Origin: an uncultured Verrucomicrobiales bacterium | Lineage (GTDB): Bacteria > Verrucomicrobiota > Verrucomicrobiia > Verrucomicrobiales > DEV007 | Assembly: GCA_937891465.1 (NCBI GenBank) | Contig: CALAHF010000003.1 | Span: 1 to 40,419 of the forward strand | DNA: 40,419 bases | Direction: 5' to 3' | Shown: positions 2,286 to 35,814 of the stretch, in pieces | How positions within the stretch are numbered: the first letter of the stretch is position 1 | Layout of the letters: each line of letters starts with the position of its first letter | The notes under the pieces: model-generated | Databases searched by the model: none | What the model was told of the DNA's origin: nothing | What the model saw: the letters and a program-made list of their open reading frames with translations, nothing else | Made by a program: the position numbers and the translations under genes

Positions 2286-4844
2286 TTATTTGCGTTTGGC
2301 ATCAATTCGAAGCACACCATCTCCGCTCTGCTGGTGAATTTTTTGGCCACCGTCTTTGATTTCAATGTCGGCTGAGATCTCTTTTGCCTGACCGACCAGC
2401 GCATCTTCTGCAACCTTTAGTTTAAAGGTCACCGTCTCGTCACCCGATTCAATTTTTGCTGGCTCGACCAACTCCACGCCGGTCGGCAGTCGAAGCAAGA
2501 TCCCCTGGGCGACGCCTTCGAACTTTCGAAGGTGATTTATCTTTCCGACGATCTCACCCGTCTTGCCTTGCTCAATCGCAGCTCGTTCCAACTCGATTGT
2601 GAGATACGGATCAAGCACTTTGATTTCGATAAATGGCGCAGCCACAAAATGAAACCCCAATCCAGTTCTGACATTTCCGCCCTCGTTTTCGCGGCAATTA
2701 ATCGACAGCTGATACGTCCCGTCTTTCGCTTGGTTGGTTGCTGAGATTTTATAAAAGCCCTCATTCTTTCCAGCTTCAACAACCATCGGAGGTTGCTTCG
2801 TAAGACCCGGCGGCACCCAATCCATCTCTGCGTAGATCGCGCCTTCAAATCCTTCTTTGCGCTCGACGGTCACCTTCAATTCCAGCTCGGCATCCTTCGC
2901 GAGGCCAACTTTGGGCTGCTCCAGTTTCACGCTGAACGGCGCCTCTTCCACAACCGCAAAAGCAGCGAATCGCGTTTTGTTGAAAACCATGTCGTAACTT
3001 CCCCGCCGCTGAGTCGCTCCCGTAGTCATTGCAAATGCACCGCTGAGATTTGCTTTTTCATCGACGGGTTTTGGAATGAGTTCGAAAAGCCCGCACTTCA
3101 GATCGGCATCATAAGGCGCAGAAAATGTGGTCAAAATTACGAGGTCATTTTTTGTGAAAACAGGGCACTCAAACGTGATATCCGCAGGAAGCCCTTTTGC
3201 TTCCAGCGTCATTGGACCATCATAGCGCGCTCCAAACCCATTCTGAATTGCGATTGGCCGGGAGAATGTCGAGCCACGATGGATATTGATCACATCACGC
3301 GTGATATCCCGCTTCGACGGATACGGTGGGAAGTGCGTAAAAATCGTATTTCGGTGTGGCTGAATCTCGATCCGGTAAATGTAATCCTTTCCAAACTCGC
3401 GCCGCGTATCGCCCACGCCAATCAGGTAATCTCCATCTTCATCCGGCTCGAACATGAATACGGGATCCAGCCGATCCTTTACCTGGTGCCGATAGTGGTG
3501 CCCCTCCCAATCATGGCCGTCCCACAGCGAATCATCTTCCTCATAAAGCCGCGAGCTTTTGTTCCCTTCAGCAGGACGCACCCATATAAACGGATCCAGT
3601 TTCGAACCCAGCGTCCGGGCATAGGCACGAACCCGATAGCGCTCGCCCTTTCTTGCGCTGATTTTATACCAATCTTTTTCACCTTCTTTCTCGACTATTC
3701 CATTCAACGCAACGGGTAACGACTGCCCGATCGATTGCGTATTCTCCGGTTTGTTGTGGCCAGATTCTTCCATCACGTTCGGAAAATTCGCGACTTTCAA
3801 TTGGTTCGGAGACGGAATATCACCGCCATAATTGATCAACGCCTCCTCAAATTCGCCCACGCTTTTCGGAAGTTTCACCTTCTCCGTTTTCTCTTCGCCA
3901 TCTTCCAGAAAAACTCGAAGGGTCAACTCATCACCCGCTTTTCCACCAAGCGGATACGTGACCGCTGGCCGTTCGAAATCGCCAATGTGCAACGCGTAGT
4001 GCCGCACCGCTGTTTCGTAATCCATTTGCTGACGTGCCAACACCAAATATTCGCCCGGCTCTTCCGCGATAAACGAAACCATCGGATCCTGACTAAAGAG
4101 TGGCGAATCATCGCAACGAGCAACGCGCTTCCCTGATGGCGAGCGGACCTCCAGCGCCATATCAGTCAGACCGGCATAGTGATATGTTCCGAGACGCGCA
4201 CTCAATATTTGGGCCGTGCATCGCTGACCCGCACTCAATTTTACTTTGTAGTAATCGAAGTCATTCGGCGGCCCTTGAGGCTGATAGCCAACCACCGTTG
4301 AATTCAGCGGAACCAACTGCGCAAACTCCGGTTCATCATTTTTTGTCGAGAAGGGCTCGACCTCCTCGACGACCGGAAATTTCGTAACCCAAAACGAGAG
4401 CATTTCTGAAAGATGCTTTTCGGTTCGGATTCGGAAAAAATATTCTCCAATTTTTGCATCTTTCGCAATGTTGAAGGTGACCTGAATCGCCATTCCCAGT
4501 TCAGCTTTCTCAGTCCTGCCGTTCCATGAATATTCTGAAAGTTGTTTAATTTTTGTGCAGGCGATTCCTTTCTGGTAAAAAAGGATTTCCTCCGCAGTGT
4601 CCAAAAGCGTCCCCTGCACCAGAGCCGTTACCTCGGTTCCCTGCTGCCCAATTTGAGGGATGATTGATTCAGCCGTTTCTTCCTGGCTCCGACCCAGAAC
4701 AGCGGAAAGCAAAACAGCCAAAACGAACCAATAGGGTCTGTTCGCCGAACCAACCCTATTGCTTCGAAACGCCCACACGAACCAACCCTGTTCGTTCGAT
4801 GAACAGACCCTGTTGCTTCGTGAAATTGATAAACGTTGCTGCAT
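2286..4844 (-). CDS. Secreted PPC-domain protein with a palindromic doublet inside its signal-peptide region
   Basis: Large exported protein of 852 aa from the ATG at 4842-4844. Two bacterial pre-peptidase C-terminal (PPC) beta-sandwiches are visible: about 185-280 (DFDYYKVKLSAGQRC) and 375-505 (EKDWYKISARKGERYRV). Ig-like C-terminal modules follow. It parallels the 839-aa protein at 14648-17167, and both precede a PSD1 gene, which suggests a partner of the cytochrome-like protein. The N-terminus is odd: after MQQRLSIS come 33 residues encoded by two 45-bp palindromes (4723-4821), with an RSNRV motif twice at 18-residue spacing, and then LAVLLSAVLGRSQ. Removing those 99 bp leaves a normal signal peptide. 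Earlier starts are possible: ATG 4887-4889, preceded by AAGGA, or GTG 4929-4931. The gene lies 25-110 bp after the esterase stop and 6 bp before the PSD1 start. Confidence 0.88.
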   Translation of the reverse strand: MQQRLSISRSNRVCSSNEQGWFVWAFRSNRVGSANRPYWFVLAVLLSAVLGRSQEETAESIIPQIGQQGTEVTALVQGTLLDTAEEILFYQKGIACTKIKQLSEYSWNGRTEKAELGMAIQVTFNIAKDAKIGEYFFRIRTEKHLSEMLSFWVTKFPVVEEVEPFSTKNDEPEFAQLVPLNSTVVGYQPQGPPNDFDYYKVKLSAGQRCTAQILSARLGTYHYAGLTDMALEVRSPSGKRVARCDDSPLFSQDPMVSFIAEEPGEYLVLARQQMDYETAVRHYALHIGDFERPAVTYPLGGKAGDELTLRVFLEDGEEKTEKVKLPKSVGEFEEALINYGGDIPSPNQLKVANFPNVMEESGHNKPENTQSIGQSLPVALNGIVEKEGEKDWYKISARKGERYRVRAYARTLGSKLDPFIWVRPAEGNKSSRLYEEDDSLWDGHDWEGHHYRHQVKDRLDPVFMFEPDEDGDYLIGVGDTRREFGKDYIYRIEIQPHRNTIFTHFPPYPSKRDITRDVINIHRGSTFSRPIAIQNGFGARYDGPMTLEAKGLPADITFECPVFTKNDLVILTTFSAPYDADLKCGLFELIPKPVDEKANLSGAFAMTTGATQRRGSYDMVFNKTRFAAFAVVEEAPFSVKLEQPKVGLAKDAELELKVTVERKEGFEGAIYAEMDWVPPGLTKQPPMVVEAGKNEGFYKISATNQAKDGTYQLSINCRENEGGNVRTGLGFHFVAAPFIEIKVLDPYLTIELERAAIEQGKTGEIVGKINHLRKFEGVAQGILLRLPTGVELVEPAKIESGDETVTFKLKVAEDALVGQAKEISADIEIKDGGQKIHQQSGDGVLRIDAKRK
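4723..4767 (+). repeat. 45-bp palindromic element, copy A1
   Basis: Left arm starts ACGAACCAATAGGGT and right arm ends CCCTATTGCTTCGA; 17 of 21 arm positions pair around a 3-nt centre. It carries AATAGGG opposite CCCTATT, a paired change relative to the AACAGGG/CCCTGTT of copy C. Orientation is called forward because the left arm has TCTGTTC and the right-arm complement has TTGGTTC. It lies inside coding sequence. Confidence 0.9.
4777..4821 (-). repeat. 45-bp palindromic element, copy A2 (inverted partner of A1)
   Basis: Begins ACGAACCAACCCTGTT and ends CAGACCCTGTTGCTTCGT. The TCTGTTC-type arm is on the right, so it is inverted relative to A1. Nine bases (4768-4776) separate the two copies, giving a 99-bp doublet with a 54-bp period. 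The left arm is rearranged: it reads CCCTGTT where AACAGGG would be expected. It is translated as part of the PPC protein's N-terminus. Confidence 0.85.
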
Positions 4845-14481: not shown

Positions 14482-14499
14482 GGTCAAAATTTTAGTTTT

Positions 14500-14544
14500 A
14501 CGATCCAACAAGGTCTATTCGATGAACTAACCCTGTTGTTTCGT
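14500..14544 (+). repeat. 45-bp palindromic element, copy B1
   Basis: Starts ACGATCCAACAAGGTCTATT and ends ACCCTGTTGTTTCGT; about 15 of 21 arm positions pair. Forward orientation. It lies 18 bp upstream of the PSD1 ATG, within the intergenic part of the operon. Confidence 0.9.
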
Positions 14545-14584
14545 GCCCGATTCAGCTTGCTGGATGACGGGATTAATTTTTGTT

Positions 14585-14629
14585 ACGATCCAATAGGGTT
14601 CATTCAATGATTAGACCCTCTTGAATCGT
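14585..14629 (-). repeat. 45-bp palindromic element, copy B2 (inverted partner of B1)
   Basis: Starts ACGATCCAATAGGGTTCATT and ends ACCCTCTTGAATCGT; about 16 of 21 arm positions pair. The TCT-type arm is on the right, so it is inverted relative to B1. The 40-bp spacer between the copies itself contains a CCCG/CGGG-ended imperfect hairpin. B2 lies 18 bp after the stop of the PPC gene. Confidence 0.88.
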
Positions 14630-14647
14630 AAAATGTTGAATTTTATA

Positions 14648-18531: not shown

Positions 18532-18720
18532 AATGGTGAGATCAGTTAATTTGAGATCTAGATATTGTAACGGTCGAGTTGTGCCCCCTATTCTCAAGGG
18601 GCGCTTTCACGTATTACGCTTTTCCGTAAAAGGGAGGCACGCGATTCTGAACTTCGATTTGGCATCAAATTTCAGGAATCAATTAAGCCACCTTTTTAGC
18701 GCGGGAAAATAGTGTTGTTT

Positions 18721-18749
18721 TTGATAATTAAAACAAAAAAGCGTTTAAA
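18721..18749 (+). promoter_or_regulatory. Candidate promoter of the histone-like gene
   Basis: TTGATA at 18721-18726, a 17-base spacer and TTTAAA at 18744-18749 give a sigma70-like arrangement, with a start expected about 48 bp before the ATG at 18805. The surrounding DNA is strongly A-rich. This is read by eye and untested. Confidence 0.4.
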
Positions 18750-18804
18750 TAAAAAGCGGCACGATTCTTGCTTTTGCCTCCAATTCAACAACCTACACTC
18801 AATT

Positions 18805-19152
18805 ATGGCTACAAAGAAAACAGCATCCAAAAAAGCCGCGGCTAAGAAAAAAGATCCCGCAAAGAAGGCTCCGGCTAAAAAAGCGGCACCGACTAAGAAA
18901 AAGTCGGCAGTAAAAAAGAAGGCGCCGGCTAAAAAGGCGCCGGCTAAAAAGGCCCCTTCCAAAAAGGCTCCAGCTAAGAAAAAAGCTCCGGCACGCAAAA
19001 AGCCATCGAAAGTCACGGCCAACTCTCTAACCGGTGAAGAGCTTTACTTGTATGCTCAAGAGGCCGCTTATTATTTGGCAGAAAAAAACGGGTTCTCAGG
19101 CGATCCGGCCGACTATTGGGCGAAAGCTCAAAAAGAGCTCGGAATCGGATAA
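18805..19152 (+). CDS. Histone H1-like Lys/Ala/Pro-rich protein with DUF2934-like C-terminus
   Basis: 115 aa. Residues 1-75 are tandem KKAPAKKA-type repeats, the hallmark of bacterial H1/Hc1-like DNA-binding tails. The C-terminal 40 residues (LYLYAQEAAYYLAEKNGFSG, then DPADYWAKAQKEL) match the DUF2934 pattern of small helical domains (AY..A...G....D.W..A...L). The likely role is nucleoid compaction by charge, with the folded domain adding a contact; this is inference. The ATG at 18805-18807 is chosen because the 31 residues upstream in frame are not repeat-like and cross the promoter candidate. Element C begins 20 bp after the stop. Confidence 0.88.
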   Translation: MATKKTASKKAAAKKKDPAKKAPAKKAAPTKKKSAVKKKAPAKKAPAKKAPSKKAPAKKKAPARKKPSKVTANSLTGEELYLYAQEAAYYLAEKNGFSGDPADYWAKAQKELGIG

Positions 19153-19172
19153 TTTCCTTTTCCTGACTTTTT

Positions 19173-19217
19173 ACGATCAAACAGGGTTAATTCAACGAAT
19201 CAACCCTGTTGGTTCGT
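19173..19217 (+). repeat. 45-bp palindromic element, copy C
   Basis: The best-paired copy: 18 of 21 arm positions pair. It starts ACGATCAAACAGGGTTAATT and ends AACCCTGTTGGTTCGT around an AAC centre. It lies 20 bp after the histone-like gene and could fold in that transcript, but no T-run follows it. Orientation is ambiguous. Confidence 0.92.
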
Positions 19218-19250
19218 ATCAGGGCTATCTTCCGGTTCCGCTCCGCGAGA

Positions 19251-19322
19251 ATCCTCAGACCGCTGGCAAGCCAGCTCGTCGCCCCGTTGCTTCGTGAAAC
19301 CTCACTTCTGAAGTGATTTCAC
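19251..19322. repeat. Degenerate palindromic copy C' with two embedded hairpins
   Basis: CGTTGCTTCGTGAAA (19285-19299) matches the end of copy A2 and its 3' flank, so this is probably the remnant of an inverted partner of C. Its left part is replaced by GCTGGCAAGCCAGC (19262-19275, a 6-bp stem). GTGAAACCTCACTT and AAGTGATTTCAC (19294-19322) form another stem with a two-base bulge. Confidence 0.5.
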
Positions 19323-19373: not shown

Positions 19374-20744
19374 ATGAAAACAACGGTGAAAAGGATTTGG
19401 TTCGCGGCGGGACTTGGGATTGCTTATCTTTTAAGTTTTCCTGTTTCTGGGCAAAGCCAACCAAACGAGAAAGCGCAGCGTTATTTCTCAGCGCTCGAAA
19501 AGCGGCCCTTTGCGGACTCGTTATTCGACCGTTTTTTTGATGCGTGGTTGGAAACTGCCACTATCGCCGAGTGTGAGGCATTTTTAAACGCACGGGCTGC
19601 TAATTCTTCAGCCGAACAACTGATTTCAGGGCGATTCTACCTTCGTCGGGGAGATGCTGAAAACGCGGCCGACGCCTTTGGTAAAGTCACTGCGACCGAA
19701 ACCTTTTCAGATCAGCATCGGGCCGGTGCGTGGGTTCAACTGGCGAAAATTTCCGGAAGTGCCCGCGATTTCAAAAACGCACTCGTTCAACTTGAAAACG
19801 CAGAAAAAGCCTTCCAACAAGCTGATTTTTGGAATGTAAAAACCGAGACGGAAGTGATCCAGCTTCGGGGAACCTTTCTGATTCGCGCCGGAAAACGAGA
19901 CGAGGACCTCACTGTCTGGACCGCTCTTTTGGAAAAACGAGCTGGAGACGATCTGCTTCGCGAAGAACTCGTCGCGCTGCTGGCAAATTATGGAATATGG
20001 GACAAAGCCATCGAGCAGCAGGAGATTTTGATCCAAAATGCAGAAAAGAATGCCTACGATCAAGTTCTTCGGAAAATCGCATTGGGGCAGCTATACCGTC
20101 GCTCCAACCGTTGGAACGATTCGCTCGAAACGTGGCGGCTCACCTTGCTAAAAGTCGGTCACGATACCTGGATCGAACGCGAACTGATCGACTTGATCGC
20201 CTCGTATTACCGGAGGAACAGCGACTTGACGCGGTGGAAAGTGAAGCTCGATTCGCTGATACAGACTGAGCCCAAGCGAATGGCACTGAAAGTTGAGCAG
20301 GCCGTATTGCTTGCTGATCTCCGCGAAGACGGCCCCGCAATCGAAGCATGGGAGAAAATCCTCGCACTGACTCCAGGCGAGGGCGGGATCGATCTTTCCG
20401 GCGGCGAGAAACAGCGGCTTGCCATTGCCCGGGCAATCTTGAATGACCCTGCGGTTTTGATTTTGGACGAAGCCACTTCGGCCGTGGATTCACAGACTGA
20501 AAAATCGATTCAAGAAGCCATCGCCAATCTTGTGAAAGGGCGGACGACGATCGCGATTGCTCATCGGTTAGCAACGCTCCGAAATGCAAATCGACTTATT
20601 GTAGTCGAAAACGGGCAAATGGTTGAAGAAGGCACCCACGAGGAATTGATGGCGAATGACGACGGCCATTTCGCGACGCTGGTGCGCTTGCAGGCGGAGA
20701 ACAATCAGCTGCGCAGCGAGCAACGCGGCTACAGCTTGGATTAA
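19374..20744 (+). CDS. Chimeric ORF: secreted TPR protein fused to the C-terminal half of an ABC ATPase
   Basis: 456 aa. Residues 1-27 are a signal peptide (FAAGLGIAYLLSFPVSGQ). Residues 30-333 are TPR-like helices (SAEQLISGRFYLRRGDAENA and EAWEKILALTP). At about residue 335 (nucleotide 20376) the sequence changes to an ABC nucleotide-binding domain: GEGGIDLSGGEKQRLAIARA (signature), VLILDEATSAVD (Walker B and catalytic Glu), then IAIAHRLATL (H-loop His). The Walker A and Q-loop are absent, so this half cannot hydrolyse ATP alone, and an ATPase half behind an export signal makes no sense. The Verrucomicrobial TPR family I recall is much longer than 330 residues. A deletion joining two genes, or an assembly join, is the likely cause. 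The ORF itself is certain; a functional product is doubtful. Confidence 0.75.
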   Translation: MKTTVKRIWFAAGLGIAYLLSFPVSGQSQPNEKAQRYFSALEKRPFADSLFDRFFDAWLETATIAECEAFLNARAANSSAEQLISGRFYLRRGDAENAADAFGKVTATETFSDQHRAGAWVQLAKISGSARDFKNALVQLENAEKAFQQADFWNVKTETEVIQLRGTFLIRAGKRDEDLTVWTALLEKRAGDDLLREELVALLANYGIWDKAIEQQEILIQNAEKNAYDQVLRKIALGQLYRRSNRWNDSLETWRLTLLKVGHDTWIERELIDLIASYYRRNSDLTRWKVKLDSLIQTEPKRMALKVEQAVLLADLREDGPAIEAWEKILALTPGEGGIDLSGGEKQRLAIARAILNDPAVLILDEATSAVDSQTEKSIQEAIANLVKGRTTIAIAHRLATLRNANRLIVVENGQMVEEGTHEELMANDDGHFATLVRLQAENNQLRSEQRGYSLD

Positions 20745-24628: not shown

Positions 24629-24673
24629 CCGATCAAACAGGGTCTATTCAGCGAATCAATACTATTGGATCGT
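24629..24673 (+). repeat. 45-bp palindromic element, copy D
   Basis: Starts CCGATCAAACAGGGTCTATT and ends ATACTATTGGATCGT. Forward orientation from the TCTATTC arm. It lies 12 bp after the vccD stop and 76 bp before the carbonic anhydrase GTG. The right arm has drifted (TACTATT), so pairing is weaker than in C. Confidence 0.85.
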
Positions 24674-35524: not shown

Positions 35525-35666
35525 TTTTTAGGCCGAAAGATTCGTTCAATTGAAGCTTTCCCATTCAAGTTTTCCTTTGTTCGACCACCTCTCCATTGGA
35601 TCCTTAAATGATGGGATTCACCAGTATTTTTTCCAACGAACATCCGATACCGCAAAACACTCCAAC

Positions 35667-35711
35667 ACGAACCAACAGTATCCGACCGACGAACCAACCC
35701 TATGCGATCGT
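35667..35711 (+). repeat. 45-bp palindromic element, copy F1
   Basis: Starts ACGAACCAACAGTATCCGAC and ends AACCCTATGCGATCGT. Forward orientation from the GAACCAACCC right arm. Several left-arm bases have drifted. Confidence 0.82.
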
Positions 35712-35720
35712 GGAGTCATT

Positions 35721-35765
35721 TCGATCCAAAAGGGTAAGTTCGATAAACATACCCTGTTCGTTCGT
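35721..35765 (-). repeat. 45-bp palindromic element, copy F2 (inverted partner of F1)
   Basis: Starts TCGATCCAAAAGGGTAAGTT and ends ATACCCTGTTCGTTCGT. Its reverse complement aligns with forward copies, so it is inverted relative to F1. The spacer is 9 bp (35712-35720), the same as in doublet A, giving another 99-bp unit. It ends 49 bp before the TMEM220-like start. The remaining 141 bp of this spacer (35525-35666) hold nothing I recognise. Confidence 0.82.
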
Positions 35766-35814
35766 GAAACGGGATTTCAGTTGAAACCTTCCTCACCCCG
35801 CACCATTTTTTCAC

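Follow-up and report, generated by a model that had tools for sequence, protein, structure and literature searches.

An in-frame open reading frame joining truncated giant TPR protein and ABC exporter sequences in a draft Verrucomicrobiales genome

We analysed a 40,419-nt stretch of DNA (hereafter the window), which is the entire contig C3 of a draft genome of an uncultured Verrucomicrobiales bacterium (5.97 Mb in 229 contigs, 95.6% complete). One open reading frame (ORF) of the window consists of the N-terminus of a giant tetratricopeptide-repeat (TPR) protein joined in frame to the C-terminal end of an ABC exporter (Table 1). No trace of either reciprocal half was found in the assembly, and no second instance of the fusion was found in the searched data. 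The reading we favour, with a probability of roughly 0.6, is a real and recent rearrangement, after which the reciprocal halves were lost, the frame was kept by chance and no ABC function was left. We infer that a deletion was the mechanism, that function was lost and that the join exists as DNA. An earlier examination of the letters and ORFs alone (the sequence-only reading) had preferred an accident, by short-homology deletion or false assembly join, to a designed fusion; the lack of a second instance and of both reciprocal halves bears this out.

Table 1 Features of the fused ORF and its upstream flank (window coordinates)
Feature	Coordinates	Strand	Basis or detail
Whole fused ORF	19374-20744	+	456 aa, no internal stop
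Signal-peptide-like start (by eye) and truncated giant-TPR N-terminus, 334 residues	19374-20375	+	28-38% identity to giant TPR N-termini, 8 places in 7 family genomes
Junction GGCGAG (Gly-Glu), common to both parent families	20376-20381	+	Codons compared across 6 TPR sequences and 8 exporters
Last ~122 residues of ABC exporter	20376-20744	+	74-79% identical to the C-terminal ends of exporters of 759-803 aa; only positions 103-137 of the 137-position ABC_tran profile
Dispersed intergenic repeat copy just upstream of the ORF (context; role in join not implied)	19170-19299	.	Also present, whole or in part, on 24 further contigs of the genome

Two truncated parents in one reading frame

In the Pfam scan, weak TPR-type matches precede a match to ABC_tran at residues 335-369. 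The ABC part starts mid-domain, at G335/E336, and the TPR part could be aligned with six giant TPR sequences from five genomes up to residues 336-343, so that the switch placed by the sequence-only reading near nucleotide 20376 is confirmed. The ABC part retains LSGGE, LILDEA, SAVD and AHR, which we take to be the signature, Walker B, D-loop and H-loop motifs, respectively, and which are common to eight relatives. Walker A and the Q-loop are absent, as the exporter alignment starts downstream of both, and the membrane domain (ABC_membrane, PF00664) had no match in the Pfam scan of the fused protein, whereas it was found in both full-length relatives scanned; all three absences had been correctly recognised from the letters. 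Because these elements are missing, the product would not be expected to work as an ABC ATPase or to bind ATP. On visual inspection, the start of the ORF resembles a signal peptide. Single-sequence structure prediction gave a mean pLDDT of 45.4, too low for use, and a scan for sigma-70-like promoters, whose model is not meaningful for this bacterial group, returned none on the plus strand between 19000 and 21000.

Its homologues identify the TPR part as the N-terminal portion of giant secreted TPR proteins. Used as a query, its 334 residues match 15 of 74 family genomes (own genome included) at E <= 0.001, with strong matches (E 1.2e-48 to 1.1e-35) at eight places in seven family genomes besides its own; in an even draw from the order, 55 of 386 genomes match at 1e-8 or better. 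The resulting table holds 104 places, two of them in the own genome, and 83 of the 102 others lie within open frames of at least 2,000 aa. We inspected 17 of the 19 places in shorter frames (G310:C160 and G380:C312 were left out; G222:C562 was checked for the ABC part only). Most of them reach a contig end; at both places in G056 a stop or frame change occurs, after which the sequence continues, that in G188:C105 ends after 1,111 further residues, and in G051 the reading frame is lost. Relatives of the same order align with the fused ORF throughout this N-terminus and mostly occupy frames of 2,000-4,000 aa, whereas in the fused ORF homology ends at residue 334 and the continuation of at least 2,000 residues is absent. 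We found no curated name for the family in Pfam or NCBIfam, and a literature search for giant tetratricopeptide-repeat genes in Planctomycetes gave no match. One other close family member was found in the own genome, a 155-aa ORF on contig C35 (L018, G000:C35, 11657-12121). Its first ~120 residues are 47-56% identical to five of the six giant TPR N-termini and 29% to the sixth, and are followed by a different short tail. Since this only other copy found is a truncated N-terminus too, the family looks to be decaying in this genome.

The ABC part has its counterparts in eight genomes, G001 (the only one of the same genus), G027, G051-G054, G063 and G064, all with intact exporters. In the alignment of these complete proteins the membrane domain, Walker A and Q-loop sit upstream of the junction point. 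NCBIfam NF052233 (cyanophycin metabolism-associated ABC transporter) was the top-scoring model for the fragment as well as for both full-length relatives scanned. The fused ORF thus shares its last ~122 residues with complete exporters of this kind and differs from them in lacking membrane domain, Walker A and Q-loop. The scores, 163.5 bits for the fragment and 552.6 and 566.2 bits for the relatives, all fall below the curated cut-off of 880, and the link to cyanophycin is therefore not established.

Compared with G001, the ABC part shows a dN of 0.117 and a dS of 1.76, the latter near saturation, and for the most part it appears to have diverged as a working gene does. Amino-acid changes number 9-12 on its side vs 3-7 on the G001 side with seven outgroups (chi2 > 3.84 with one of the seven), i.e., a mild acceleration that is mostly not significant and gives no date for the event. 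The end branch of the TPR part measures 1.71 against a median of 0.77 in a seven-row tree of unresolved branching order, and likewise provides no date.

The junction and the search for missing halves

The junction reads ACT CCA GGC GAG GGC GGG ATC in the window. At this point the six TPR sequences (five genomes) have T/S-P-G-E/D followed by R in five and L in one, and the eight exporters have V/L-G-E-G/S-G. The Gly-Glu codons (GGCGA or GGCGAG, ~5-6 nt) alone are common to both parent families, with relatives' sequences standing in for the parent alleles, and both parents are in the same codon phase there. The sequence-only reading had taken 12 nt, GGCGAGGGCGGG, as readable in both parents; by this codon comparison, so long a stretch was probably not shared. 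An overlap of ~5-6 nt would fit illegitimate recombination. It also makes a false join by k-mer overlap unlikely, being far below the k-mers usually employed in assembly (21 or more).

Both searches proposed in the sequence-only reading, for the missing halves in the assembly and for the same fusion in relatives, were carried out. The TPR continuation of G053 (2,428 residues) matched nothing in the 229 contigs of the own genome; the same query recovered five of five loci in four relatives at 239-503 bits, the best pieces spanning its first 600-1,600 residues. With the first 632 residues of the G001 exporter, the three best loci of the own genome reached 28% identity, against 58-67% in seven of seven relatives. 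The whole G001 exporter matched the tail in the window at 78% and all other ABC loci of the genome at no more than 35%, i.e., no intact ortholog was found. Hence neither the full TPR gene nor the N-terminal ABC half was recovered with queries that succeeded at every relative locus tested. A misjoin should have left both halves on other contigs of a 95.6% complete bin, and is disfavoured by their absence.

The same architecture was not found in any independent genome examined. Among the 52 loci compared, none of the 45 that bear the TPR part carries the ABC segment (a few places are held twice, and some end soon past the junction point). A degenerate junction pattern run over the GTDB r220 collection gave a single chance match (L165), dropped as a radical-SAM-like reading frame recognised by eye, and no true fusion. 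In the plasmid collection no single place covers 80% of the fused protein among the best 5,000 of at least 5,000 matching records. No relative came up when the TPR part was scanned against the proteins of the genome collection, but the method relies on short exact peptide matches and overlooks homologues as distant as these, so that this negative is of little weight. The genome and plasmid collections may leave out records of the window's own genome.

Origin of the join

In the rearrangement that we favour, a deletion or other event in this lineage would have joined about the first tenth of a giant secreted TPR gene to the 3' end of an ABC exporter gene, with the shared ~5-6 nt of Gly-Glu as the joining point. 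Comparison with relatives suggests a loss of at least ~2,300 residues from the TPR protein and ~630 from the exporter; that the frame survived would be a matter of chance (1 in 3). Any protein made from the locus would be exported and consist of a TPR fragment followed by an ABC-derived tail unable to bind ATP, and the locus would be a recent relic of two genes rather than a working fusion. Support comes from the intact exporter tails of the relatives, the halves not found, the short overlap, the truncated copy on C35, the flanking repeats, the absence of N from the contig and the mild excess of changes in the ABC part. Chimeric pseudogenes that arise when a deletion at short homology joins two genes are known, and the locus resembles them in that two truncated genes are joined at a few shared bases and both missing halves were not found; it differs in that former adjacency of the parents is not established. 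The sequence-only reading had invoked a deletion between neighbouring genes, which our comparison does not support: in all three relatives with both parents (G051, G052 and G053) they lie on different contigs, in G053 deep within long ones, while in G052 the TPR gene is followed, and in G051 the exporter preceded, by another gene. Ancestral adjacency is thus an assumption of the mechanism. In the stretches of relatives that we examined, the right-flank genes did not turn up together, and gene order is no guide to the ancestral arrangement.

The functional-like divergence of the ABC part and the fact that the fusion is known from a single assembly also count against a rearrangement, and the best evidence against it is an intact partner gene. 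Of 72 family genomes, 20 encode a protein with DUF1854 (NF052234, with every score under the cut-off; PF08909 for the copy in G053), and so do all nine genomes in which this exporter or its tail is present. In 17 of the 19 genomes besides the own one, an exporter match lies on the same contig, in five of these in one frame with DUF1854; in the other two, G001 and G063, an intact exporter is located on a different contig. An intact DUF1854 ORF is also present in the own genome (L190, C175:21405-21962), with no ABC gene within the 13 kb around it, and more distant exporters lie on C31, C97 and C165. The orphan points to a very recent loss of the exporter, to an exporter missing from the assembly alone, or to service by the exporters on C31, C97 or C165. 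A literature search joining cyanophycin, DUF1854 and ABC transporter gave no match.

An orphan partner that looks as though its exporter still worked is what one would expect if the join were an artefact, i.e., if a chimeric read, an insert or the assembly had brought together two loci of the same genome, while the organism possesses an intact TPR giant and exporter that are missing from the bin. We regard this as unlikely, though it deserves to be taken seriously: the evidence comes from one assembly in 229 contigs, the parents are unlinked in the three relatives mentioned, and this assembly breaks at repeats, as the right end of the window matches the start of C195 (96% over 72 nt). Against it stand the failure to find either reciprocal half in so complete a bin, the overlap far shorter than usual k-mers, the join in frame and the truncation of the second TPR copy on another contig. 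Of the false join considered by the sequence-only reading, therefore, the form produced by k-mer overlap is improbable, and that produced by a chimeric read or insert is possible. A join between two different organisms was rejected as the main reading: related dispersed repeats on both sides of the junction indicate that the two sides belong to one genome or to closely related ones, and the GC3 values of the two ORF parts, 0.53 and 0.61, fall within or near the 0.45-0.61 span of 15 other genes in the window.

The ORF is open over 456 codons, in frame and headed by an export-signal-like start, as would be expected of a selected fusion in which an exported TPR adaptor with a newly gained ABC-derived C-terminal tail is made and used. 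We consider such a protein improbable in view of the absence of the ABC segment from the 45 TPR-bearing loci compared, the chance nature of the sole junction-pattern match, the plasmid result and the prevalence of long frames among the TPR matches. The ABC part starts mid-domain without Walker A and Q-loop, to our knowledge no ATP is expected beyond the cytoplasm, and the long TPR end branch also speaks against selection. That a newly born exported protein, a TPR scaffold with the captured signature/Walker B half of an ABC ATPase, is expressed and useful seems more improbable still.

Implications and genomic surroundings

The locus is of an ordinary kind and serves mainly as a caution: in a draft genome, an ORF with two domains cleanly joined in frame can be a deletion scar or a false join, and catalogues of domain fusions would take such an ORF as a functional link between a TPR protein and an ABC exporter. 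Searching the same genome for the reciprocal halves, with positive controls in relatives, is a cheap and general test. If the join is real, a short-homology event preserved the reading frame across two unrelated genes.

The window contains several dispersed intergenic repeats of ~100-140 nt. Besides the copy listed in Table 1, they occur at 4689-4829 and 35652-35769, with short pieces at 14496-14636 and 24630-24673. The first of these has a 71% copy at 35652-35769, and that upstream of the fused ORF has an 84% piece at 24630-24673; both have many copies on other contigs of the genome, and some copies of the latter type are also present in the same-genus genome G001. The repeats had no Rfam match and are of inverted-repeat character; the segment 4723-4821 is 71% identical to its reverse complement. 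The match to C195 at the right end of the contig (40348-40419) concerns the first 72 nt of that contig, on the reverse strand. Upstream of the fused ORF, at 18712-19152, a histone H1-like protein, rich in lysine and alanine and ending in DUF2934, is encoded within a direct-repeat stretch.
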